From Armatimonadota bacterium (GTDB taxonomy: Bacteria; Armatimonadota; UBA5829; DSUL01): DNA of 64,000 bases. The translations under genes were made by a program, and so were the position numbers. Location of the stretch: assembly GCA_025998755.1 (NCBI GenBank), contig AP024674.1, forward strand, positions 3,116,162-3,180,161, read 5' to 3'. Positions 10,510-27,048 of this stretch are shown piece after piece. Every line of letters begins with the position of its first letter. Position 1 is the stretch's first letter. The notes below the pieces were generated by a model. It did not search any database. It was not told where the DNA came from and saw only the letters and a list, made by a program, of their open reading frames with translations.

Positions 10510-10668
10510 GCCTGCCGGCTGCGTCTGCGCCGCGTCCAGGCGAAGCTGCCGCACCGTCGGCAAATCCAGGGTCAATCGTCACTGAAACACGCGCTCAATG
10601 CGCACCACATTCGGCCAGCGGATCTCGTATTGCGCATTCGCTGGGTTTCCGGGTACCGGCTCTATGTT
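10510..10668 (-). pseudogene. Remnant of a second Res (type III-like helicase) gene
   Basis: Directly after the intact res stop, another frame reads NIEPVPGNPANAQYEIRW followed by PNVVRIERVF; after a TGA at 10579-10581 it continues in frame with LTLDLPTVRQLRLDAAQT. From memory this matches a segment of DEAD/DEAH Res proteins of a different family (xIRWPNVVRIxxVY...LTLD). The intact Res at 10667-14092 does not contain it. Only about 50 codons remain. No gene is seen from here to the start of the sulfatase maturase (10329-10509). Confidence 0.5.
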
Positions 10669-13600
10669 AGCAGTTCGCCACTTCGTACAGCTTCGCGAGC
10701 GTCTGCAGCCAGAGCTTCATCTCGGCCCACGCCACGCCGGCGTCGTTCAACTCGGTCTCAACGTGGGCTACCCGTGTATTGCGGAATTTATTGACGCGCT
10801 CCAGGAGATTGTAGAGTTCCTTGAAGGCTGGGGCAGAGAACGCGTCATGGACCGCCCTCCAAATCCCATCGGCACTCAGCCCGCCCTGATGGGCGTAATC
10901 CAGGCAAAAGAGCAGCGTCCCCAGACGTTGGATATAACGGCCAAAGACGAGGTTCTCGCGCAGATAGCGCTGATTCTTCTCCAGCAATGCCCGTTCACGT
11001 TGGGGCAGGTGGCTCAGGTCTGGGTCGAAGAAGCGGTCCGAAGCTTCTCCACCCATAGGAATGGAGGGTTTGAGAGATTTCTCCAGAATGCGAACGGCCA
11101 ATTCATCGAGCGGGCCCAAGAGCGGTTGGAAAGCGTGAGCATACGTCGGTTGCCGTGAGCGCACCGCGTGATCCAAGAGGCTCACAGCCTGCTGCATCAC
11201 GGCGGACGTTTCTGGTGGTGGTTGGACGATACCAGCCTCCTGCAGGACGCGTTGAAACAGGGCTTCGGATTCCGACTGAGCCGTCGCCTCTTCCAGCGGC
11301 AAGGACATCTGCTTGGTCTTCCACTCATCCAGCAGGGCCTTCAAAGATGGCTCGCAGGCGCGCGCAAGTTCTGCAACGGCGGTGGCTGCCCCCTGCTGGA
11401 AAAGGTGATAAGGCACATAGAGGTAATGCCAGCGCGCCCCTTTAGCGGAGGCGGTCTTACACCATTCCACAGCGGCACTGGCCTTGAGCGGTACCAGCTC
11501 GTCCTGGCGGCCCTTCAGTTCCACCAAATAACGATCGCCCCGGGCGGTGCGCACGAAAAAGTCGGGGACGTAGAAGGCGCGCTGGCCATCCGGCTTCAGA
11601 TAGTCCAGCATCAGCTTCTGGGGGCCGGCATTTTTTGCAAAGGCCACCACGTCTTGCGCCGTCTCCAGAAAGTCGCTAAACTCCCGCTCAAAGTCGCTGT
11701 CGCACGGCACGAGGTTGAACATCGTGCGTTGTGCGGGAATGGCTGGGCGCTTCTCGTGGCTCGTAGCCTGATAGGGTCGCCAAGACGACAGGCGCTGCCC
11801 GCTGCTGATTCGCTGGCGCTTCTTCTGGCGAACCGTCTTTTCCAGAAGGAGCGGCCTGAAGGTGGCGCGGATACACTCCATCACGTCCTTGTCACGCATC
11901 CGGTGGTCCACCTCGCCGCTGTAAAGGTCCACGCGGCGCTCGAACAGCACCTCGGCGATGAAACGCTCGACCAGCGGGGCCAGTACCTGGTGCGGGTTGC
12001 TGATGCGGCAGGCGCGCCCTAACATCTGGGCAAAGTAGGACGGCGCAGACCAGGCGTTGTTCAACAGCCCGGCATCCAGCTTCATTGTGGCCACGATCTC
12101 ATCAGTGAACAGGTGCCGTTCTTTGTATTCGATAGCTCCTTCCCTCTTCTTCCCAATGGGCAAAGGTCGGAACTTTTCATGAAACGCGTCCCGCACCTCC
12201 TCGAAGGTCAGACCTTGCAGTTCCCGGGTGGTCTCGACGGCGTCGGTAAGGTGCGGGATTTCGATCTCGAGCGCCTCCACGTCCTTGTGCGCGTGATCCA
12301 CGAAGATCGTGACGGTTTGCTTGAAGACCTCCCGAATCGGCAAGACGGGGATGCCCGGCCACTCCTGTGCCAGTTCCTCCTCGTACAGTTTCCGGAAGGC
12401 AGGATGTTCGATCACGGTAACGATTTCCGGAATCTCACCCAGGGGGAACATCCGGCGCAGACCGCGCCCCAGGGTCTGTTCCGGTAGAATGCCGGACTTG
12501 GCCGAGTAAGGGCGCAGCGGCACGATGGTGGTCACGTTGCGCACATCCCAGCCCTCGCGAAGCATCATCACCGAAACCACGCAACGGAACTTGCTGTCGG
12601 GGCTATCCAGCTCGCGCGACATATCGCGCAGCGCGCGCAGGTCCTCCGGCTTCATGGCCGTTTCGTTCTCCACGAACTCCTTGAAGGTTCTGCCGCCGCG
12701 GGTGACCGTCTTGATGCGGCCCTTCAGGCGGGTGTGAATGTTGAGCACGCGCCCTTTGAGCAGGGGAAAAGCATCGCTATCCAGATAAGCCGCGACCTCG
12801 TTGGCAGCTTGGGCGTCCTCCGTCATCACAAAGAGCACAGGCTTGCGCACTTTGCGCAGTTCCTTGTAGGTCCTGGCATAGCGCTGGTAGCCAAGCTGCA
12901 GGTGCATTCCAAAGCGTTCATGGGCCGGCGCTTTCTCGTCGCCGCGCACGACGAGCTCATCCGATTCACCCAGCACGGGCACTTTGACGATGCCAGCATC
13001 CACCGCCTCGCCCAAAGGAAAGTCCACCACGATGTGACGGAAGAGCGAGCCGTCGTTATGCTTGGGCGTGGCCGTAAAGTCCAGTTGCAGGCACAGGCCG
13101 CGCTGTCCGCGCTGCAAGCTTTCTTCATGCAGGGCGTCGATGGCGCGGTTCCAGGCCAGGTCCGGATCATGCAGATGGTGGGCTTCGTCGTTGAGCACCA
13201 TCAGGCGTGGATGGGCGGTGATGCGCGCGCGCAGGCTTTCGCCCGTATCCAGCGCCCGGCCGCGCACCACCGTCGGCCCGAAAATGGCCGAACCCCCGTC
13301 CTCATGCGCTTCGCCGCCGTTGTCGCGGCTGGGATAGAGGCGGTGGATGTTGGTCAGGTAGAGCGCTCCGGTCGTCGTCGCGCCGCCGGGTTCGTCCTGC
13401 AGCACGACCTGCAGCTGCAAGTCAGACTGCCATTCCTCCGGGATGACCGGGTCGGCGTAAAAGATGGCGCAGTTCTCAAAGTCGTCTTTCAGGCGCTCGT
13501 AGACGGTCAGGTTGGGCGCAATGACGACGAAATGCCGCGCCAGGTCGGAGTTCGGCTCGTACAGGCTGTGGAAGTAGCTCCAGACGATGGCCAGGCTCAT

Positions 13601-14092
13601 GATCTTGGTCTTGCCGGCGCCGGTCGCGATCTTGGCGCAGTACCTGGCCCAGCGATCCTCCTCCGGCGGAATTCCCAAAGCAAGGTCCGCCAGCTGTTCA
13701 TCGCCGAATTCAAATAGCAGTTCGGCCACGTTGCGAATGCGACGAACTTCGTAGAGGTAGATGAATGTTTCGATGGCCTCCCGCTGCGCCCAGTGGTAAC
13801 GGAAGGGAATCAGGTCGCCGGCTTCGTTCTTGACCAGGTGCTCGTTGTCGAACCAGTGATGCAGCAGGGTGCGGGAAGTTTCGCTGGCGCCGGCATAGCC
13901 GCCGCGCCGCCAGGTATCCACCTCGGCGCGGATGGCGCGCACCAGCGGCACCATGCTGGGCCGGCGCCCCGGCGCGATGATGGCCGGCTGCCCCGGCTCA
14001 GGGTTGGGCTGGCGGTGACTCGTCGGCTCTTCCCAGGGCTTGAAGAGCGGCTCCAGGGCGGATGCGTTCCGTTGGGTGACTCTGAAAGCCAT
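10667..14092 (-). CDS. Type III-like restriction enzyme, Res helicase/nuclease subunit
   Basis: 1141 residues. Superfamily 2 helicase with Walker A ATGAGKTK at about 157-163 and the DEAH box in LNDEAHHLHD; SAKSGILPEQTLGRGLRRMF is the motif VI region. After it, YVPDFFVR and YLVELKGRQDE give a PD-(D/E)XK-type nuclease core. The last 200 residues are helical and resemble a HEPN-like tail. It starts two bases after the mod stop, so the two are co-transcribed and probably form one complex that cuts unmodified DNA using ATP. Flanked by remnants of another Mod/Res pair. Recognition sequence unknown. Confidence 0.88.
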   Translation of the reverse strand: MAFRVTQRNASALEPLFKPWEEPTSHRQPNPEPGQPAIIAPGRRPSMVPLVRAIRAEVDTWRRGGYAGASETSRTLLHHWFDNEHLVKNEAGDLIPFRYHWAQREAIETFIYLYEVRRIRNVAELLFEFGDEQLADLALGIPPEEDRWARYCAKIATGAGKTKIMSLAIVWSYFHSLYEPNSDLARHFVVIAPNLTVYERLKDDFENCAIFYADPVIPEEWQSDLQLQVVLQDEPGGATTTGALYLTNIHRLYPSRDNGGEAHEDGGSAIFGPTVVRGRALDTGESLRARITAHPRLMVLNDEAHHLHDPDLAWNRAIDALHEESLQRGQRGLCLQLDFTATPKHNDGSLFRHIVVDFPLGEAVDAGIVKVPVLGESDELVVRGDEKAPAHERFGMHLQLGYQRYARTYKELRKVRKPVLFVMTEDAQAANEVAAYLDSDAFPLLKGRVLNIHTRLKGRIKTVTRGGRTFKEFVENETAMKPEDLRALRDMSRELDSPDSKFRCVVSVMMLREGWDVRNVTTIVPLRPYSAKSGILPEQTLGRGLRRMFPLGEIPEIVTVIEHPAFRKLYEEELAQEWPGIPVLPIREVFKQTVTIFVDHAHKDVEALEIEIPHLTDAVETTRELQGLTFEEVRDAFHEKFRPLPIGKKREGAIEYKERHLFTDEIVATMKLDAGLLNNAWSAPSYFAQMLGRACRISNPHQVLAPLVERFIAEVLFERRVDLYSGEVDHRMRDKDVMECIRATFRPLLLEKTVRQKKRQRISSGQRLSSWRPYQATSHEKRPAIPAQRTMFNLVPCDSDFEREFSDFLETAQDVVAFAKNAGPQKLMLDYLKPDGQRAFYVPDFFVRTARGDRYLVELKGRQDELVPLKASAAVEWCKTASAKGARWHYLYVPYHLFQQGAATAVAELARACEPSLKALLDEWKTKQMSLPLEEATAQSESEALFQRVLQEAGIVQPPPETSAVMQQAVSLLDHAVRSRQPTYAHAFQPLLGPLDELAVRILEKSLKPSIPMGGEASDRFFDPDLSHLPQRERALLEKNQRYLRENLVFGRYIQRLGTLLFCLDYAHQGGLSADGIWRAVHDAFSAPAFKELYNLLERVNKFRNTRVAHVETELNDAGVAWAEMKLWLQTLAKLYEVANC

Positions 14093-14094
14093 GG

Positions 14095-16167
14095 CTACAC
14101 CTCCACGTCCAGCACCACCGTGGTGTCCACACCAAACACATCGATCACCTTGACCGCGATCTGATGTTTGCCCTGCTTCTCGTACTGCCAGCCCAGGTCG
14201 CTGCGTGTCTTCAGCGAGCGGTCTTTGCGGGTGCGGAAGTCCTGCCAGTGGTGCTCGAAGGGCTTGTCGGGCGAGTAGTCGAAGTCCACCGCCCAGAAGT
14301 CAATGAAATCGAAGGGCGACTTCACCGCCCGCTCGCGCAGGGCAGCCAGTTCGGCTTCGGGCGCTTCGGCCAGGGCCGGGGTGAAGGACTCCAGTTCCAC
14401 ATCCACCTTGCCATCCTTGACGATGGGGCGAGCCTCCAGCGCGCCGGCCTCGAAGAACTGCACCTCCGTGCGGTTCGGCTCCATGATCTCGCGAGGGATG
14501 TACTTCAGGCGGATGGTCACGCCGGTCTCGGCCTCCAGCGCCTCCTTCTTGCGGCTGAGTTCCATCTCGAATTCCCATGCCAGGCAGTGCACTTCGCGCC
14601 CGCCCACGCTGCGCACGGCCTCGGCCACGGCGCGCAGTTCGTCGTGGGAAAAGATGCTGTCGATCTGATCCACGTGCACGTAGGCGGGCCCTTTCTTGCC
14701 GTGCAGCAGCGGATGGGGCGGGTTTTCGAGCAGCGCCGCCTTGTAGAACTGAAGCACGATGCGGCGATGCTCGCCGTCGGCGCCCTTGAGCCGATCCAGT
14801 TGCCACCACTGCCGCTCGTAACGCCCCAGGTTATAGACATCGAAGGAGCGGTAGGGTTTGCCCGCGGCGTGCAACTCCCGCTGCACATGAATCAGGCGTT
14901 TGCGCGTGGTGTGAGTAGCGAAGCGCCCCAAATCCACGCCGATCCAGCGCCGACCGAGTTTCTCTGCCACCGCCAGCGTCGTGCCAGAGCCGCAGAAGAA
15001 GTCCGCTACCAGGTCGCCTTCGTTGGAGGAAATTCTTATTATCCGCTCAAGTAACCGCTCTGGCTTTTCTGTAGAGTACGAACTGCCACCCTTCATTCGT
15101 CCAACATTAAGCCAAATATCTTGTGGCAATATTCCGGTGTTTTCATCAAGAAAGGACACCTTGCAACGTGCCGCTCCAACCTCAGGGTTGCGTAAGAAGA
15201 GCTTGCCCTGAACTAACCATTCTTCCATAGTTTGCTTATCTACAGGCCATGACCGATTTGGAGATGGTCGTGCGCCTCTCCATTCATACTGATAGCCTGG
15301 TCGTACTCCAGGAACTGTAACATCATCTAACTTAAATCTTCTACCTTCTTCGCCTGGGGAAAATCGAACAACAGACCCGTCTTTTTTCAATACCAGGCTA
15401 TACTCTCTGAGAGCAGATTCCGAGAGTGGATCTGTATCTGCCTGCAAATTTATAAAGTAGTCTTCGCTCTTGGTGTAAAAAAGAATGATGTCGTGAACAG
15501 TTCCATATTTACTGGTTACATTGCTATGTGCATCCGTTCGCTGCCAACATATCTCATTTATGAATCGCTCCCTACCAAACAACTCGTCCATCAGAGCCCT
15601 AACTTGGTGCGTGATTGTTGGCCCAACATGTACATAAATACTTCCCCTTTCGCTGAGCAGATCGCGCATCAGGGTCAGCCGTTCGTACATCATGTGCAGG
15701 TAGGAATCGGTGCCCTTGCCCCAGGTGTCGCGGTAGGCCACGGCTTCCAGGATGGATTGCTCCTTTTGCACCGCCTCGCCTCCCTCGCCGATCTGCACCT
15801 GCATGGTGAAATCGGCGCCCACGTCGAAGGGAGGGTCAATGTAGATGAGGTCAATCTTGCCGCGGAACTGCTCCAGCAGGGCGGCCATAACCAGCTTGTT
15901 ATCGCCCCAGATCAGCCTGTTGCGGAAGTCGTCCCGGTGGGCCTTTTGGTGGAAGGCCGCTTCATCGAAGAGGCCCAGTTGCTGTGCCTTCTCGCGGTCG
16001 CGCGGCTCATCGATCGTCTCGATGCGCTGCAAAGGGAGGGGCGAGGCCGGCAGCCGCACGGGCCGGCGGTTGCCGTACTCGTCATACTTGCCCTCCCAGA
16101 CCAGCTCGGTCTTCATGCGGGAGAGGGGATGTGGATTGTCGGGTCCCCACGCGATGCGATAATCCAT
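14095..16167 (-). CDS. Type III-like DNA methyltransferase, Mod subunit
   Basis: 690 residues. N6-adenine (or N4-cytosine) methyltransferase of beta-class order: catalytic LIYIDPPFDVG at residues 109-117, then a target-recognition region, then the AdoMet motif DFFCGSGTTLAVAEK near 387-401 and GRRWIGVDLGRF. It protects host DNA and supplies sequence recognition to Res, which follows after two bases. The middle third (bases about 15015-15660, residues about 170-385) is visibly richer in A and T than the flanks, which points to exchange of the recognition domain. Confidence 0.9.
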   Translation of the reverse strand: MDYRIAWGPDNPHPLSRMKTELVWEGKYDEYGNRRPVRLPASPLPLQRIETIDEPRDREKAQQLGLFDEAAFHQKAHRDDFRNRLIWGDNKLVMAALLEQFRGKIDLIYIDPPFDVGADFTMQVQIGEGGEAVQKEQSILEAVAYRDTWGKGTDSYLHMMYERLTLMRDLLSERGSIYVHVGPTITHQVRALMDELFGRERFINEICWQRTDAHSNVTSKYGTVHDIILFYTKSEDYFINLQADTDPLSESALREYSLVLKKDGSVVRFSPGEEGRRFKLDDVTVPGVRPGYQYEWRGARPSPNRSWPVDKQTMEEWLVQGKLFLRNPEVGAARCKVSFLDENTGILPQDIWLNVGRMKGGSSYSTEKPERLLERIIRISSNEGDLVADFFCGSGTTLAVAEKLGRRWIGVDLGRFATHTTRKRLIHVQRELHAAGKPYRSFDVYNLGRYERQWWQLDRLKGADGEHRRIVLQFYKAALLENPPHPLLHGKKGPAYVHVDQIDSIFSHDELRAVAEAVRSVGGREVHCLAWEFEMELSRKKEALEAETGVTIRLKYIPREIMEPNRTEVQFFEAGALEARPIVKDGKVDVELESFTPALAEAPEAELAALRERAVKSPFDFIDFWAVDFDYSPDKPFEHHWQDFRTRKDRSLKTRSDLGWQYEKQGKHQIAVKVIDVFGVDTTVVLDVEV
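15015..15660 (-). other. AT-rich recognition-domain segment inside mod
   Basis: Within the GC-rich mod gene this stretch uses many A/T-ending codons (for example the runs around 15030-15140 and 15290-15500) and lies exactly between catalytic motif IV and AdoMet motif I, where type III Mod proteins carry the target recognition domain. The edges are judged by eye. Confidence 0.6.
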
Positions 16168-16781: not shown

Positions 16782-16865
16782 GGGAGAAAGAGAGTGGGCG
16801 AAACAGGGCTCGAACCTGTGACCTCTTCCTTGTAAGGGAAGCGCTCTCCCGGCTGAGCTATTCGC
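16782..16865. repeat. Attachment-site direct repeat, left copy
   Basis: 84 bases identical to 23439-23522. The repeat covers the 3' flank and almost the whole of a tRNA-Val gene, ending inside its 5' acceptor strand. This is the typical product of site-specific integration into a tRNA gene. Confidence 0.9.
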
Positions 16866-17916: not shown

Positions 17917-18123
17917 ATGATGAATCCAAATCAGAACCCTTCGACACTGCAGACAGTGACGGTCAAGGAGGCCGCATCTCTGCTCAGGGTCAGCCGACCG
18001 ACGCTCTTCAGGCTGTTGAAGAGCGGGGAGCTTCCCTCGCTGATGGTGGGGAAGAGGAACCGGCGCATCCCGCTGGCGGCGATTCAGCGGATGTTGAATG
18101 AGGCGATGGAGAAGGCGGGATGA
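17917..18123 (+). CDS. Excisionase-family helix-turn-helix protein
   Basis: 68 residues from ATG 17917 (AGGAGGTG is directly upstream; ATG 17920 is the alternative). The sequence TVKEAASLLRVSRPTLFRLL, then GELPSLMVGKRNRRIPLAAI, is the winged HTH of the MerR-like excisionase/helix_turn_helix_17 family. It overlaps the next gene by ATGA, so it leads a coupled three-gene operon with the primase. It probably acts as recombination directionality factor or as a regulator of replication genes. Confidence 0.8.
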   Translation: MMNPNQNPSTLQTVTVKEAASLLRVSRPTLFRLLKSGELPSLMVGKRNRRIPLAAIQRMLNEAMEKAG

Positions 18124-18560
18124 AACAAAGAAGAAGCCCCGGCCCTGCCTGCCAGCAGAGCAACGGGGCGAGATTCCTAAAGGCAGCTTATGGTATCCCT
18201 TCAGCCGAAGCGTTGTCAACCGTGACGGCGTTTGACGGCGTCCGGACGTTCGTTGCCGGGTATTACCACGAGGCAACCAGGACGTTCTACAAATTCCTGA
18301 AACCGGGGCATATCCTGCAGAAACCACCGTCCATCGCACTGCAGGCGTGCGTGGTGGAGAACCTGCACCGGCGGCGCTGCGAGTGGATAGCCGCCGTAAC
18401 CCCGGACGGGGACGTCCTGACCGTCCCGTTTGCCCTGTTCACGCTGAAGGCAGAGGTGCTCGACCGGGGATACGGCGCGCAGCTCGCTCTGCCTCTGCGC
18501 TACTGGACCAGCCAGCGGAAGACTGAGTTGCAACCGGCTCTGACCGGCCTGGAGGTATGA
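18120..18560 (+). CDS. Element protein of unknown function
   Basis: 146 residues, translationally coupled on both sides: its ATG overlaps the stop of the excisionase-like gene, and its stop overlaps the start of the primase gene (ATGA both times). No known motif recognised; the centre (ILQKPPSIALQACVVENLHR, then CEWIAAVTPDGDVLTVPF) looks like a small alpha/beta domain. The coupling suggests a replication role together with the primase-helicase, perhaps a DNA-binding accessory. Confidence 0.55.
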   Translation: MKQRRSPGPACQQSNGARFLKAAYGIPSAEALSTVTAFDGVRTFVAGYYHEATRTFYKFLKPGHILQKPPSIALQACVVENLHRRRCEWIAAVTPDGDVLTVPFALFTLKAEVLDRGYGAQLALPLRYWTSQRKTELQPALTGLEV

Positions 18561-20617
18561 GCATGGACGTCACTACAGGCCCGGAATGGCCCTCAGACGG
18601 CCGCCAGAGCGCGTCACCCGTCGAGCAGGACGAGACGGGCGTCCTGCTCGATGAGGCGCTGCAGAAGGCGCGGTCCGGAGACTCGAACAGTGCCATCCGC
18701 TGGCTCGCACGCCAGATGCGCGGGCGCGGCCATAACATGCAGGACATCGGCCGCGCGTCCCGGGAGCTCATGCACCGCCTGGACCCGGACCGCAGGCGCG
18801 GCCCTGTCCCGGAGAGAGTCCCGGCGCATCTGGAGACCATCAAAACGCTGTTCACCGGCTGGCTGCGGTGGTGCCCGGAACGCAGAACCTGGCTGCGCTG
18901 GACGGGAAAGCGCTGGCAGGTTGACTATGATGAGCAGGTGAAGGCCGATGTCTACGAGGCGCTGCGCCAGGAGTATGCCAGCCGTTACACGCACCCGGCG
19001 TCCGAGGAGGAGCGGAACCGGGCGCTGGACCGTATGAACGAACTGCGCGACTCTCGCTACTGGGATAAGGCGCTGGAGCTGTTCAAGGGGCAGGAGGGCG
19101 TCCTGACGCCCGCATCCGAGCTCGACGCAGACCCGTGGCTGCTGAACACACCCTCCGGCGTGCTGGACCTGCGGACCGGAAATCTGCGGGAGCACCGGCC
19201 GGAAGACCTGCTGTCTCGCATGACGGCGGCAGAGTATGACCCGCAGGCAGACTGCCCGCTGTTCGAGGCGTTCCTGCGGCAGATACTGCCGCATGACGGA
19301 CTGGCGGAGTATATGCAGACCGTCCTCGGAATGGCGCTCATCGGGGCCAACCGGCCACAGGAGCTCTATATCCTCTACGGGCGCGGCAGGAACGGGAAAA
19401 GCACGCTGCTGAACGTCCTGCAGGCCGTCCTCGGAGACTACGCAGGCCCGATACCACGGGACGCCGTCCTGACGCGCCGCCAGCAGCAGGACGCCGCGCG
19501 GGTCTCTCTGGCGGCCTGCGAGGGAATCCGTTTCGGTGTCCTGGACGAGCTCGCAGACGGCGCGGCGCTCAGTCCCGTTGCAGTCAAGGACCTGACCTCG
19601 GATAACCCGATGAAGGCCCGGGCGCTCTACGAGAACTACCGGGACATCCGCCTGTCCGTGACCCCGTTCATCGCCACCAACCACAAACCGGCCATCCCGG
19701 AACAGACGGAAGGAACGTGGCGCAGGGTTCGCCTCATCCCGTTCACGTTCCAGGTTCCGGAAGAGAACGTGGACTCGCAGATGGAAGGGAAACTGCGGCG
19801 GGAGGGTGCTGGAATCCTGCGCTGGCTGGTGGAGGGGTGCAGACGGGCTCTGGAGCACGGCCTGCAGAGGCCGCCGGTGGTGGAGGAAGCCACCCGGGAA
19901 TACCGCACCGAGGAGGACGCGCTGGCGGAGTTCATAGACGCCTGCTGCGTCACAGGACCGGCCTGCCGGGCAGTGTTCCGTGACCTCTATGCGGCCTATC
20001 AGCAGTGGTGCGACGAGAACGGCGTCGAACGCGCGCTGACGAAAAAGGCGTTCGCTGCCAGCCTGGAGCAGCGAGGAATGGAGAAAAAACGAGAGCGGGT
20101 CGGGGCACAGGCAGAGCAGGTGTACAGGGGCATCGGTCTGCTGAACAACCGGGATTCTGTTCGCGATGTTCACGATTCGGGGCAATTTCAAAAAATCCCC
20201 GTACACGCGCACGCGCGAGAGAGTTTTTCAAAACAGGCCATAATCGCGAACATCGTGAACACCTGCCCCTCTGAGACCGCCGTTCCCGCGACGTCCTGCG
20301 ACTCAGGCGGCGCAGGGGACGTTTCCGAGCCGCCGGTTGGCTGGCTGGACAGCGTTGCGTTGACTGAGGAACCACCACCGGAGGATGAGAACCTGGACTG
20401 TGAGCCTGCCTCAGAGGACGACGTCTGCCAGGCCGCGCAGGCTCTGCTGGAATCCGGCCGGTATCCTGCCAGTCTGCCAGACCTGCGCATCGTGGACTGC
20501 AGGCGGTATCTAGAGTCCAACCTGCGGGACGCGGTGGACGGGCCACCGGCCATACGAGACCCCGCCATTGACCGTCTGCGCAGGCTACTCGAGCACGTGG
20601 ACGCGGCCGGGCGGTGA
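18557..20617 (+). CDS. Phage/plasmid primase-helicase, P4 alpha/D5 family
   Basis: 686 residues. D5_N-type domain (about 90-250), then a superfamily 3 helicase: Walker A in YGRGRNGKSTLLNVL (about 273-287), Walker B in FGVLDELADG near 328, and the sensor stretch VTPFIATNHKPAI. It ends with a winged-helix-like segment (AYQQWCDENGVERALTKKAF). No TOPRIM or PrimPol domain is seen at the N-terminus, so priming may be done elsewhere or by the host. It would unwind DNA at the element's origin. The C-terminal linker DNA carries inverted 9-mers (20159-20260) that may be part of that origin. Confidence 0.88.
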   Translation: MSMDVTTGPEWPSDGRQSASPVEQDETGVLLDEALQKARSGDSNSAIRWLARQMRGRGHNMQDIGRASRELMHRLDPDRRRGPVPERVPAHLETIKTLFTGWLRWCPERRTWLRWTGKRWQVDYDEQVKADVYEALRQEYASRYTHPASEEERNRALDRMNELRDSRYWDKALELFKGQEGVLTPASELDADPWLLNTPSGVLDLRTGNLREHRPEDLLSRMTAAEYDPQADCPLFEAFLRQILPHDGLAEYMQTVLGMALIGANRPQELYILYGRGRNGKSTLLNVLQAVLGDYAGPIPRDAVLTRRQQQDAARVSLAACEGIRFGVLDELADGAALSPVAVKDLTSDNPMKARALYENYRDIRLSVTPFIATNHKPAIPEQTEGTWRRVRLIPFTFQVPEENVDSQMEGKLRREGAGILRWLVEGCRRALEHGLQRPPVVEEATREYRTEEDALAEFIDACCVTGPACRAVFRDLYAAYQQWCDENGVERALTKKAFAASLEQRGMEKKRERVGAQAEQVYRGIGLLNNRDSVRDVHDSGQFQKIPVHAHARESFSKQAIIANIVNTCPSETAVPATSCDSGGAGDVSEPPVGWLDSVALTEEPPPEDENLDCEPASEDDVCQAAQALLESGRYPASLPDLRIVDCRRYLESNLRDAVDGPPAIRDPAIDRLRRLLEHVDAAGR
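20159..20260. repeat. Inverted pairs of GTTCRCGAT 9-mers inside the primase gene
   Basis: GTTCGCGAT (20159-20167) and GTTCACGAT (20168-20176) are tandem; 66 bases on, ATCGCGAAC (20243-20251) and ATCGTGAAC (20252-20260) are the same sites inverted. The spacer has an alternating purine-pyrimidine run and A/T patches. The encoded protein here looks like a linker. Candidate initiator binding sites. Confidence 0.6.
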
Positions 20618-20626
20618 TGTGCAACA

Positions 20627-20697
20627 GTTGCGCATTCGGTATTGCGCAGTTGCGCATGGGGTTTGTGCGGATTTTCCACCGGCTGCGGATGCGCAAC
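20627..20697. repeat. GTTGCGCAT repeats after the primase gene
   Basis: GTTGCGCAT at 20627-20635 and 20649-20657, a TTGCGCA copy at 20642-20648, and an inverted ATGCGCAAC at 20689-20697. Iteron-like spacing, starting ten bases after the primase stop. Confidence 0.6.
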
Positions 20698-20748
20698 GGC
20701 CAGGGCGGATAGCGGGTATTCCGGTGGAGCGCCTCTGCCAGTGACATA

Positions 20749-21010
20749 GGGTCTGATTTTCGAATCTGAAAATCAGACCCGCCTACTATCACCAGCGAAT
20801 ACCAGACCGGTCGCGGCGGCTGGACACTGGAACGGATTGCCGGGGTGCTGGGGGTTTGCACGCAGACAGTCCTGAACTGGACCGGAGATACCGAGGCAGC
20901 TTTCCAAAATTTGAAAGCTGCCGGTCGTGACGGCAAACAGCGTCCGGTGCGCTACCGTCCACGGACTGCGGTGTTTTGCCAAGGCAGCTTTTAAAAATTT
21001 AAAAGCTGCC
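20749..21010. repeat. Three near-perfect palindromes downstream of the primase
   Basis: Hairpin 1: GGGTCTGATTTTC (20749-20761) with GAAAATCAGACCC (20768-20780). Hairpin 2: GGCAGCTTTC (20895-20904) with GAAAGCTGCC (20913-20922). Hairpin 3: GGCAGCTTTTAAA (20983-20995) with TTTAAAAGCTGCC (20998-21010). Hairpins 2 and 3 share their arms and are followed by GGTCG. They have AT-rich centres in GC-rich DNA. Between 20618 and 21194 I see no intact gene, only these repeats, the iteron-like sites and a decayed HTH frame. Confidence 0.8.
20770..20994 (+). pseudogene. Start-less HTH fragment
   Basis: An open frame without a usable start codon reads EYQTGRGGWTLERIAGVLGV, then CTQTVLNW and later AAGRDGKQRPVRYRPR, ending at TAA 20992-20994. 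The first part has the HTH pattern W(T/S)xERIAxxLGVxxxTVxxx; from memory the GRDGKQRP tail resembles ParB/DNA-methylase-associated HTH segments (DGKxYPxR). Palindrome 2 lies inside it. It looks like the decayed end of a larger regulator gene. Confidence 0.45.
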
Positions 21011-21194
21011 GGTCGCCATCACCAACGCGCGCGGTCAGTGGGAAAATACCAGACCGGCCGCAGGCGCGCTGTACGGCCAATCTGAGGCCATCTGCGGCCA
21101 TTCTGGCACTGCGCCCGGCAGGACAATTTCCGGGTATATTGCGTGCGATACGAACACATGTTCTGTCCGCACGGACAGAATGAGGGCCTGCCAA

Positions 21195-21620
21195 ATGACA
21201 GAATCTGACAGAACCGGACTCACACCGGAACAGGAACTGGCTATCGCGCGCCTGGTAGAGGGCGCAACGGACGCGGAGGCTGCGGAGACCGCCGGTGTGA
21301 CGCGGCAGACCGTGAACACGTGGAGGAACCGCAATCCGGTGTTCATGGCGGAGTTGAACGCACGCCGCAGGGCCCTGTGGGATGCGCACCAGGACCGTAT
21401 GCGCCGCCTCATCAGCCGGGCCCTGGACGTGCTGGAGGAGGACATGGCAGACGACAGCCAGTCGCCCGAGTGCAGACGGCTGCGTCAGGCGGCCGCCGTC
21501 CAGGTGTTGCGCGCAGCCACCGGCCTGAAACCGGACGGCCCGGTCCACCCCGGCGAAATAGATGTCGAACTGCGTTCGCAGGAGATAATGCTGTCCGGGC
21601 TAACGCGCTATAGCAAATAG
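21195..21620 (+). CDS. Helix-turn-helix protein, terminase-small-subunit-like
   Basis: 141 residues from ATG 21195 (GAGGG upstream; ATG 21180 gives five more). The N-terminal part LTPEQELAIARLVEGATDAE, then TAGVTRQTVNTWRNRNPVF, is the phBC6A51-type HTH found in phage small terminases and in many element-encoded regulators. A helical middle (RRALWDAHQDRMRRLISRAL) may mediate oligomerisation. No large terminase follows, so packaging by its own machinery is unlikely. It may instead redirect a helper phage or bind the adjacent palindromes. The last two points are speculation. Confidence 0.65.
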   Translation: MTESDRTGLTPEQELAIARLVEGATDAEAAETAGVTRQTVNTWRNRNPVFMAELNARRRALWDAHQDRMRRLISRALDVLEEDMADDSQSPECRRLRQAAAVQVLRAATGLKPDGPVHPGEIDVELRSQEIMLSGLTRYSK

Positions 21621-22374: not shown

Positions 22375-23310
22375 TCACAGCACCCGCTTGCGCGTCTTCG
22401 ACGGGACCGAGAGCCGGTCTGCCGGTGAATAGAGCCGGTGCTTCTCCTGGACGTCCGTATCCGCCACCTCCGTATACCGCCGCGTCATCGTCAGGTCTGC
22501 GTGTCCGAGGATGCGCTGCAGCGTGAACACATCCCCACCGGCGCGCAGATAGGAGACGGCGCAGGTGTGCCTCAGACGGTGCGGCCCAACCCTGCGCCGG
22601 ATACCGGCGCGCTCCGCCGCCTGACGCACGATATGCCCGATGCGGTAGCGGTCCACGCCCTGCCCGTAGCAGTTGACGATGAGCTGCGGTGCCTCGACGT
22701 TGCCACGGACCGCCAGCCAGTCCTCCAGAGCCTCCGCGACAGTCTGACCGAACGGGACGCGGCGCGGTTTGCCGCCTTTGCCGCAACGCACCAGCAGGAC
22801 ACACTCGCTCGTGTCCACGTCGTCCAGTCTGAGGGCTGCGAGCTCTGAGGCGCGCAGGCCGCAGTCCACCAGCAGCAGCAGGACGAGACGGTCCCGGCGG
22901 CCTAGCGGTGTGTCCGGGCAGGATGCCACCATCGCCTCCACCTCCTGCTGCGCCAGCGGCTCTATGACCGGCCTCGGTGCCTTCGGGCGGGGCAGCCCCT
23001 CCGCCGGGTCCGGGTGACCGAGGCTGCGCAGGTGTTTGCCGAACGCCTGCAGTGCGTTGTAGTAGCGCTGGACGGTGGAGGGCTTCCGGCCCTTGCTGAC
23101 CTGCAGCAGGAAGGATTGCAGGTGCTTCTGAGAGAGCTGCTCCAGCCGAAGCTCCCCGGCCTGTTCAACGAGCCGGGAGAGGACGCCTTCGTTGAGCGTC
23201 ACCGTGGACCGTGAAAGGCCGCGTGCACGGCAATGACGCAGGAAATCCGAGACCGCCTCAGAGACCGTTACAGGCCCCTGCAGGAGCACAAGAGGAACGC
23301 TGTCTGCCAT
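22375..23310 (-). CDS. int: Tyrosine recombinase (integrase) of the element
   Basis: 311 residues from ATG 23310 (GGAGG seven bases upstream; the start is supported by homology with the remnant at 16564-16653). SAM-like N-terminal core-binding domain (about 12-100) and a XerC/D-like catalytic domain with all active residues: R153 (GLRASEL), K178 (GKGGK), H244 and R247 (HRLRHT), H270 (LGHADLTMT), Y279. It would recombine the tRNA-Val att sites. Its gene starts about 130 bases from the tRNA 3' end, the usual arrangement for such elements. Confidence 0.93.
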   Translation of the reverse strand: MADSVPLVLLQGPVTVSEAVSDFLRHCRARGLSRSTVTLNEGVLSRLVEQAGELRLEQLSQKHLQSFLLQVSKGRKPSTVQRYYNALQAFGKHLRSLGHPDPAEGLPRPKAPRPVIEPLAQQEVEAMVASCPDTPLGRRDRLVLLLLVDCGLRASELAALRLDDVDTSECVLLVRCGKGGKPRRVPFGQTVAEALEDWLAVRGNVEAPQLIVNCYGQGVDRYRIGHIVRQAAERAGIRRRVGPHRLRHTCAVSYLRAGGDVFTLQRILGHADLTMTRRYTEVADTDVQEKHRLYSPADRLSVPSKTRKRVL

Positions 23311-23438
23311 TCCAGAGCCTCCGTCCGGGCTGGAATGATGTGACATTCGGACGGGTGTGCTCCGGAATGAATGAAGTGCTATCAGGCCTCCGGCGACAGC
23401 ACTTCAGTCGGCACGATTTCAACGCCCGCACGCGGCGA

Positions 23439-23522
23439 GGGAGAAAGAGAGTGGGCGAAACAGGGCTCGAACCTGTGACCTCTTCCTTGTAAGGGAAGCG
23501 CTCTCCCGGCTGAGCTATTCGC
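23439..23522. repeat. Attachment-site direct repeat, right copy
   Basis: 84 bases identical to 16782-16865, covering the 3' flank and nearly all of the intact tRNA-Val gene. Confidence 0.9.
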
Positions 23523-25560: not shown

Positions 25561-27048
25561 TCAGGAAGCAGATTCGCCGATGCCGCTCAGCAGGTAGTTC
25601 ACCACATCGCGAGCGGAGTACGACTGCTTCCCCCCTGCCAGAAGCACCCGCGCCGCGCGCAGGTCCTCGCCCAGAGTGACGATCAGCTCCTCGGCCTCGC
25701 CGTCGCGGCGCACCTGCGCAAAACCGGCCGTGGCCAGCAGGCCGTTGCACAGGCAGACCCGGCCGTCCGTCTCCGTGACATCGCCGCCTTTCTTCACGAA
25801 GATATCCACAGGCTCGGCCGGGCAGCGGAAGCCCAGAGTCCCGTCCGCCTTTACATAGGCGTCGCGGAGATACCCGCGATCGCAGATGCGCTGGCGGTTG
25901 CGGTAGACTTCGGGATCGGAGAGCGACCCCGGCAGCTCGGCGATCTTGATGGGGAAACCGGTGGGGGACACGCGCGGTCGGGTGATGACTTCCAGGGACC
26001 CGTCGGAAGCCATCTGGCGTAGCCTCTGCTTGATGGCGGGATCCATGCCTGATTCGTCGCTCAGCGCGAAGGCGGTACCCACCTGAATGCCCTCCGCCCC
26101 CTCCTCCAGGGCTTTCTTCAACCCCTCGGGCGTGCCGTAGGAACCGGCCATCCAGAACGGAAGACCCAGCTCACGGATCTTTTCCAGGTCAACATCGTCG
26201 CGGCTTCCGTAGACGGGCTCCCCGCGCTCGTTGAACTCCTGCATCCCGCCTCTCGGCGGAGCGTTGTGACCTCCTGCAGTGGGACCCTCGATAACGAACC
26301 CGTCCACGCGTTTGCCTTCAGGCTTCTTGTAAAGAGAGGTGGCCAGCGTGTCGGACGCAATGATGGCCAGGAACTTCGGGCAGGCCAGATCCACCGGGAT
26401 CCCGCCGGTTATTTCGCGCGGATCGAAGTGGACCTCATACACCCGGCCGCCCGTATCGCCTTGCACCTGAAGGCGCAGGGATGCCTCTCTGCAGAGGGAT
26501 AGTTGCTCAAGAGCTTGCGGAATGGCCCGGGGGATGCCAGCCCCCATCAGGATACAATCCACCCCGGCGAGTATCGCGCCGAACAGCAAAGCCAGCGTAG
26601 GAAGCTGAATCTTGGTGAGCAGGTTCATTCCCACCAGCCCGTTGTGGCCCTCGCGCGCCAGCCAGACCTCGGAGAACGCGCTGACCACTGCCAGCTCCGT
26701 CAGCTTGCGTGAAGGCCGGTCGCTCCACATCGGTACGGGCTTGAACGGCCTGTCCGGGTCCTTGCCGCCTTCCACGAAATACTCGTTCCAGACGCGCTCT
26801 GCGATGGCGCGGAAAGGGAAGTTGCTAAACGCGCGCTGTAGATGACCGCCGGGATCTCCCATCTGCAGACGGCCGGCGATGACTCCCTCGATGACGGTGC
26901 CCGAGATCACTCCCATCTGGCCGAGCTGGGCCACCGCCCGGGCAAGGGGCCAGGTGGAGATGCCTACCCCCATCCCTCCCTGTATGATCTTTGGCCTATA
27001 CCGGAACACCGCGTCTCTCCCGCCCAGATCTGCGGCAGGCAGGCGCAA
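25561..27048 (-). CDS. Nitronate monooxygenase / NPD-family flavoprotein
   Basis: 495 residues. FMN-dependent TIM-barrel enzyme of the 2-nitropropane dioxygenase/FabK-like superfamily: KIIQGGMGVGIS near the start, AGVDCILMGAGIPRAIP, VIEGPTAGGHNAPP and GAEGIQVGTAFALSDES (phosphate binding). It is longer than the usual 320-380 residues because of a C-terminal extension (about 390-495) containing CRCPAEP-like and CLCNG cysteines, which may bind a metal. True substrate unknown; such long versions are often annotated only as NPD-family. Start taken at 27048; a shorter start near VFRYRPK is possible. Confidence 0.8.
   Translation of the reverse strand: MRLPAADLGGRDAVFRYRPKIIQGGMGVGISTWPLARAVAQLGQMGVISGTVIEGVIAGRLQMGDPGGHLQRAFSNFPFRAIAERVWNEYFVEGGKDPDRPFKPVPMWSDRPSRKLTELAVVSAFSEVWLAREGHNGLVGMNLLTKIQLPTLALLFGAILAGVDCILMGAGIPRAIPQALEQLSLCREASLRLQVQGDTGGRVYEVHFDPREITGGIPVDLACPKFLAIIASDTLATSLYKKPEGKRVDGFVIEGPTAGGHNAPPRGGMQEFNERGEPVYGSRDDVDLEKIRELGLPFWMAGSYGTPEGLKKALEEGAEGIQVGTAFALSDESGMDPAIKQRLRQMASDGSLEVITRPRVSPTGFPIKIAELPGSLSDPEVYRNRQRICDRGYLRDAYVKADGTLGFRCPAEPVDIFVKKGGDVTETDGRVCLCNGLLATAGFAQVRRDGEAEELIVTLGEDLRAARVLLAGGKQSYSARDVVNYLLSGIGESAS

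Follow-up and report, generated by a model that had tools for sequence, protein, structure and literature searches.

To our knowledge, most phages and mobile elements that encode D5/P4-type helicases have unmapped origins, and those of Sfi21, P4 (crr) and pRN1 were described separately. In P4, crr lies directly behind alpha, in which a Toprim primase is fused, and contains tandem and inverted type 1 repeats at 9-bp spacing with a spacer of ~35 bp; there are two 120-bp copies, and a separate ori, in which these type 1 repeats are found as well, lies ~2.1 kb past the opposite end of alpha. In Streptococcus phage Sfi21 (NC_000872), the annotated 302-bp noncoding origin overlaps the end of the primase gene. 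For pRN1 of Sulfolobus, deletion and complementation mapped the origin to a 100-bp “stem-loop” behind ORF904; mutants disturbing the stem lost replication, and the origin was judged to be free of iterons by its authors (PMC4234260). The origin of BIP-1/BPP-1 was drawn as a stem-loop right behind the primase (PMC4234260), and in SCCmec the C-terminal domain of the D5-family helicase Cch2 binds iterons adjoining its gene (PMC7581432). These two papers were the only literature found on the general layout.

The window (the whole 64-kb stretch of DNA analysed here) carries an element of ~6.66 kb, bounded by 84-bp exact repeats which cover tRNA-Val at either end (attachment repeats at 16782-16865 on the left and, in the second copy of tRNA-Val, at 23439-23522 on the right). 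A tyrosine recombinase/integrase is encoded at 22375-23346 on the minus strand and, with this integrase and the duplicated tRNA attachment site, the element shows the integration features of a P4-like integrative satellite. The pair of attachment repeats is the one feature suggesting that the element would excise. With regard to a possible dependence on a helper phage for packaging, a terminase-small-subunit-like ORF at 21180-21620 was a single weak match within the element, and tRNA was the only Rfam family found in it.

The initiator candidate is an SF3 helicase ORF of 686 aa (18557-20617, plus strand), present as a single copy in the genome. It matches D5_N, DUF5906 and Pox_D5, of which D5_N and Pox_D5 exceed the cut-off, as well as the TIGR01613 profile (P4-family primase C-terminus; 271.2 bits vs. 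a cut-off of 108.7). The first-pass annotation had called the element P4-type, which applies to the helicase family; however, a primase domain, including the Toprim domain of P4, was not found in the ORF using Pfam. The P4 type 1 iteron GGTGAACA is absent from the ORF as well, the iteron here being GTTCRCGAT. A 146-aa ORF (18120-18560), which has no family match, overlaps the start of the helicase gene; it might supply the primase that the helicase ORF lacks, or else act as an accessory factor. Towards its C-terminus, the helicase has a winged-helix DNA-binding domain (aa 464-528; 19946-20140, plus strand; AlphaFold2 pLDDT ~95), the proposed reader of the iterons. Among solved structures, the RFX DNA-binding domain and a C-terminal portion of ASFV C962R come closest to its fold, both with weak E-values; the whole-query TM-score of the fold search is lowered by the linker and tail contained in the model. 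The linker is predicted to be disordered (aa 539-602; 20171-20362, plus strand; pLDDT <50) and overlaps most of the putative origin, after which a conserved helical tail continues in frame (aa 620-683; 20414-20605, plus strand; pLDDT mostly ~90).

The origin-like site at 20159-20260 is built from a tandem pair of 9-bp iterons that recurs in inverted orientation after a spacer of 66 bp. The left pair, GTTCGCGAT GTTCACGAT, occupies 20159-20176 on the plus strand (copies 20159-20167 and 20168-20176), and the right pair, with GTTCGCGAT and GTTCACGAT on the minus strand, occupies 20243-20260 (copies 20243-20251 and 20252-20260). These inverted pairs had been reported in the first-pass annotation and were confirmed. 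The 64 kb contain five matches to GTTCRCGAT compared to 1.2 expected, and four of the five fall within 102 bp. Elsewhere in the genome the pattern occurs ~85 times, nearly always singly; therefore, it is the arrangement that matters and not the word. A dyad score (two forward and two reverse 9-mers, 55-90 bp apart; maximum 36) was 34 for the site, while the best of 200 dinucleotide shuffles reached 30, and no other dyad of at least 33 was detected in the window. The arms, with two iterons per side only, are complementary in 16/18 (17/19) positions with a gap of 66-68, which fits a pRN1-type stem-loop, but the site lies in a gene and has tandem iterons. GC skew over the element showed no clear switch at the dyad.

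The spacer (20177-20242) is proposed to be the unwinding region. It contains two A/T tracts, AATTTCAAAAAAT (20184-20196) and GTTTTTCAAAAC (20223-20234), and between them an alternating purine-pyrimidine tract of 18 nt, CGTACACGCGCACGCGCG (20200-20217). Its GC content of 0.50, compared to 0.66 in the gene, is in line with an AT-rich unwinding element, and the spacers of the family lie on average 15 points of GC below the gene (p 4e-14). Alternating purine-pyrimidine runs of at least 12 occur in 17/64 dereplicated spacers vs. 7/682 downstream stretches, and runs of at least 18 in eight of the 64 vs. none of the 682. In GC-rich loci the tracts alternate CG/CA (46 nt in L023, 42 nt in L068, 18 nt in the window), and in AT-rich loci they read TATATA. 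Such tracts may melt or form Z-DNA. Judged by eye, many spacers also have flanking A/T tracts.

When the described origins were inspected for the same arrangement, that of Sfi21 was found to contain a dyad scoring 35, in which TAGTTACT occurs in tandem on each side of a 69-bp spacer, one array inverted relative to the other; resembling the window, it immediately follows a D5-type primase/helicase. Its spacer shares the alternating tract and also holds GAGAGAGA; in contrast to the window, where the site is within an ORF, the Sfi21 origin is noncoding and AT-rich and uses another iteron. In pRN1 (L166, 5084-5183), the arms of the published stem-loop are two 9-bp units, TTATGTCCA TAGTGTCCA (tandem p 0.016), inverted at 64 bp. 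The 9-bp period, the inverted arms, the spacing and the position 54 bp behind a prim-pol/SF3/winged-helix gene resemble the window, whereas the pRN1 origin is archaeal, follows the stop codon, was described as a stem-loop and belongs to an initiator with a prim-pol domain. P4 agrees with the window in helicase family, in tandem and inverted repeats at 9-bp spacing and in their place directly behind the gene, but differs in the fused primase, the two copies, the separate ori, the shorter spacer and the location outside the gene. A perfect dyad (36/36) was detected in BPP-1 (L165, NC_005357) at ~26607-26710, formed by two copies of GCCTCGTTT and two inverted ones with a gap of 64 and with CATACGTGTACATG in the spacer; this site differs from the published stem-loop proposal. 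The origins of SCCmec Cch2 and SaPI Rep share with the window a D5-related, self-loading helicase and iterons beside its gene (PMC7581432); however, they have three AAGTG direct repeats downstream, and Cch2 binds without a need for inverted repeats.

In total, 120 loci with relatives of the helicase were collected from same-class and same-phylum genomes, viral contigs, phage records and genome contigs, and anchored at the end of the winged helix. A profile scan of genome contigs with alignment A2 contributed seven loci, and a single-protein scan of viral contigs gave no matches. With a dyad score of at least 31 as threshold, the layout is present at this place in 78/120 loci vs. 0/120 in-gene controls and 4/357 shuffles; the dyad is below threshold in the remaining 42. 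A second detector found it in 82/120 loci (vs. 4/120 controls and 23/600). Among the 78 loci, the dyad follows the stop codon in 59, lies inside the ORF in 17 and straddles its end in two. The gap has a median of 66 bp (quartiles 57-72, dereplicated loci), and 39 of 60 loci with good inverted arms have a tandem structure within the arm (p<0.05). The iteron letters are diverse, e.g., GACGGGTTT, GTGGTGGGT, TTGACCGAT, GCTACGGAT or TTAGTTACT. The first-pass annotation had expected the repeats to be conserved and the spacers to diverge; the opposite is observed, as the layout persists together with the length and character of the spacer, while the iteron letters change.

The closest relatives (L026, L027, L115, L116, L106 and L118) have one or two dyads each, all of them inside the ORF, and L106 (Armatimonadetes) has its C-terminal sequence and origin region in common with L119, a locus from a same-phylum genome. 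Two successive in-ORF dyads are found in L026 (3796-4029) and L027 (4850-5086), of which only the second spacer has a CGCGCGTATATATA tract. Directly 3′ of the helicase, a DnaN-like gene was recognized by eye in L026, L027, L115 and L116. Behind the gene of a Streptomyces plasmid (L163) no array was found, and a haloarchaeal locus (L112) did not pass the dyad test. In BPP-1 and in a Thermaerobacter plasmid (L159, NZ_CP037897) the dyad is present, but not directly behind the gene. The Thermaerobacter plasmid, a 6886-bp circle with a related helicase, contains exactly one dyad, which is upstream of the gene. Its record was deposited with 8456 bp, since the first 1570 bases are repeated at the end. 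Its integrase, regulators and primase resemble those of the window element; therefore, it may be an excised integrative element.

The dyad of the window covers codons 535-568, just behind the winged helix, and ~118 further codons of the ORF follow. The tail can be aligned with relatives to its end at 47% overall identity. Between L026 and L027, synonymous and nonsynonymous codon differences number 47/38 in the core, 5/42 in the origin and 14/16 in the tail. Protein-level constraint is thus weak across the origin and evident in both flanking parts, from which we conclude that the helical tail is probably a genuine part of the protein and that the origin sits on the linker. In this in-gene version, a regulatory DNA site and a protein use the same bases, a conflict which the disordered linker eases. 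Lambda-type origins likewise have iterons within the coding sequence of their own binding protein (O), as is proposed for the window; however, lambda O is unrelated to the SF3 helicase and recruits a helicase, and the lambda iterons are direct repeats and no inverted dyad. In three further loci (L011, L015, L020), ORFs that continue across the origin have short acidic C-termini whose last residue is F (e.g., DSLDWSNGVAF), possibly a tip for protein interaction.

The iteron sequence varies almost freely, yet it tracks the winged helix and not the helicase core. With core identity and GC removed, loci with more similar winged helices also tend to have more similar iterons (partial r 0.10, permutation p 0.0075), a small effect among related loci that are not fully independent; the core adds nothing beyond the winged helix (p 0.28). 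For instance, L026 and L115 share the iteron GCTACGGAT and are 87% identical in the winged helix with 64% in the core. Conversely, L026 and L027 are 92% identical in the core and 77% in the winged helix, and the iteron of L027 is a different one, GTTACGGAT. Judging from these sequences, this looks like an exchange of a cassette of winged helix and origin. The X-box half site of RFX is similar to GTNAC, a motif found in both iteron arms of 14/52 loci, more than in shuffled arms. Due to the crude control and the strand ambiguity of the motif, GTNAC was set aside as evidence for an RFX-like half site.

Since the layout matches the supported origins of Sfi21, P4 crr and pRN1, the dyad at 20159-20260 is most likely the origin of the element, and we consider it highly probable that it represents an iteron origin of the P4/pRN1 type which is overprinted on the gene of its own initiator. 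In the mechanism we infer, the SF3 helicase would bind the double-stranded 9-bp iterons via its C-terminal winged helix, and the inverted pairs would load a hexamer on each side of the 66-bp spacer, the two facing in opposite directions. The duplex would open in the spacer with its A/T tracts and alternating purine-pyrimidine tract, and replication would start from there once the ~6.7 kb tRNA-Val-integrated element has excised. Meanwhile, the ORF would read through the overprinted origin as a disordered linker and end in the small conserved helical tail.

The same anatomy could serve other ends. As a regulatory binding site (autorepression, copy-number or incompatibility control), the dyad would leave the true origin elsewhere in the element, just as P4 has an ori with the same repeats beyond the other end of alpha in addition to crr, and regulatory binding by the same helicase would lead to the same coevolution of iteron and winged helix. 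However, in Sfi21 and pRN1 it is the site immediately after the gene that has support as the origin, and the window offers no second dyad of at least 33, so we regard this as quite unlikely. The proposal made for pRN1, in which the arms would form a stem-loop of nucleic acid and not double-stranded protein sites, would agree with the complementarity of the arms and with the replication loss of stem-disturbing pRN1 mutants (PMC4234260). A stem has no need of tandem repeats with a period of 8-10 bp inside its arms, which are far more frequent than in shuffled arms, and some loci have extra copies outside the dyad or 3+3 copies; as the arms in the window are moreover imperfect complements (17/19), a stem-loop is very improbable. 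Finally, the repeats translate into VRDVHD-like motifs within a disordered segment and might be a mere product of repetitive coding in a low-complexity protein linker. This idea has a negligible probability: the second array, being the reverse complement, translates into other residues (IANIVN), the same layout follows the stop codon in most loci (59/78), and nonsynonymous differences between L026 and L027 strongly predominate in the origin, unlike in core and tail.

The remaining alternative concerns the extent of the origin. The first-pass annotation had proposed one layered origin of 860 bp, in which GTTGCGCAT repeats and three AT-centred palindromes would be further required parts. All of these repeats do exist. 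GTTGCGCAT occurs at 20627 and 20649 on the plus strand and at 20689 on the minus strand (20627-20697), with four copies in the window vs. 0.7 expected. The palindromes are located at 20749-20780, 20895-20922 and 20983-21010, of which the second and third share arms and flanks (37 bp, 89%), and they are the only AT-centred ones among the 13 strong palindromes of the window. For a layered origin speaks that all repeats fall within 860 bp, denser than chance, and that multi-part origins such as that of P4 exist. Nevertheless, close relatives keep the dyad, and GTTGCGCAT was not found in them, occurring elsewhere as single scattered copies only; no viral contig matched the pattern of palindromes 2 and 3, and the palindromes have no other copies in the genome; and L026, L027, L115 and L116 have the dnaN-like gene after the origin instead. 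A layered origin is therefore unlikely. Of the earlier origin claim, the dyad part is well supported, as most relatives show its layout in the corresponding position and it agrees with origins that have experimental support, whereas for the GTTGCGCAT set and the palindromes the claim is not supported; the 860 bp resolve into one origin-like site and unrelated repeats. Similarly, the statement that no intact gene lies in the noncoding part holds after 20617, but the GTTCRCGAT set is inside the helicase ORF. From the sequence comparison, the GTTGCGCAT repeats and the three palindromes are probably not part of the core origin and may be regulators of downstream genes or remnants. As to the palindromes, a genome-wide repeat family was ruled out by the absence of other copies, and they are neither among the terminator-like sites nor known RNAs according to Rfam. 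Palindrome 2 lies in frame within a degenerate HTH reading frame at 20785-20991 (HTH_23, weak, E 0.007).

Returning to the dyad as origin, we think it reasonably probable, though less so than its role in this element, that many D5/P4-type SF3 initiators of bacterial and archaeal phages, satellites and plasmids share a single origin class. Its members would have two pairs of 9-10-bp iterons, specific to the winged helix and inverted relative to each other, separated by a spacer of 55-75 bp that often contains an alternating purine-pyrimidine tract (CG-rich and prone to Z-DNA where the genome is GC-rich, TATA where it is AT-rich). They would include the pRN1 stem-loop, the BPP-1 origin would lie at ~26607-26710, some lineages (14/64 dereplicated loci) would overprint the origin on the disordered linker of the initiator, and winged helix plus origin would form one mobile cassette which resets replication specificity. 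The layout would then unite the Sfi21, P4 crr and pRN1 origins, with the pRN1 stem-loop re-read as inverted iterons, and provide a simple sequence rule for locating origins of D5/P4-type helicases. In addition, the link between iteron and winged helix makes the long-standing question of how a replicon changes its origin specificity directly testable. Outside the element, a type III restriction-modification-like pair (ResIII helicase and N6/N4 methylase, 10667-16167) directly adjoins its left tRNA-Val end.
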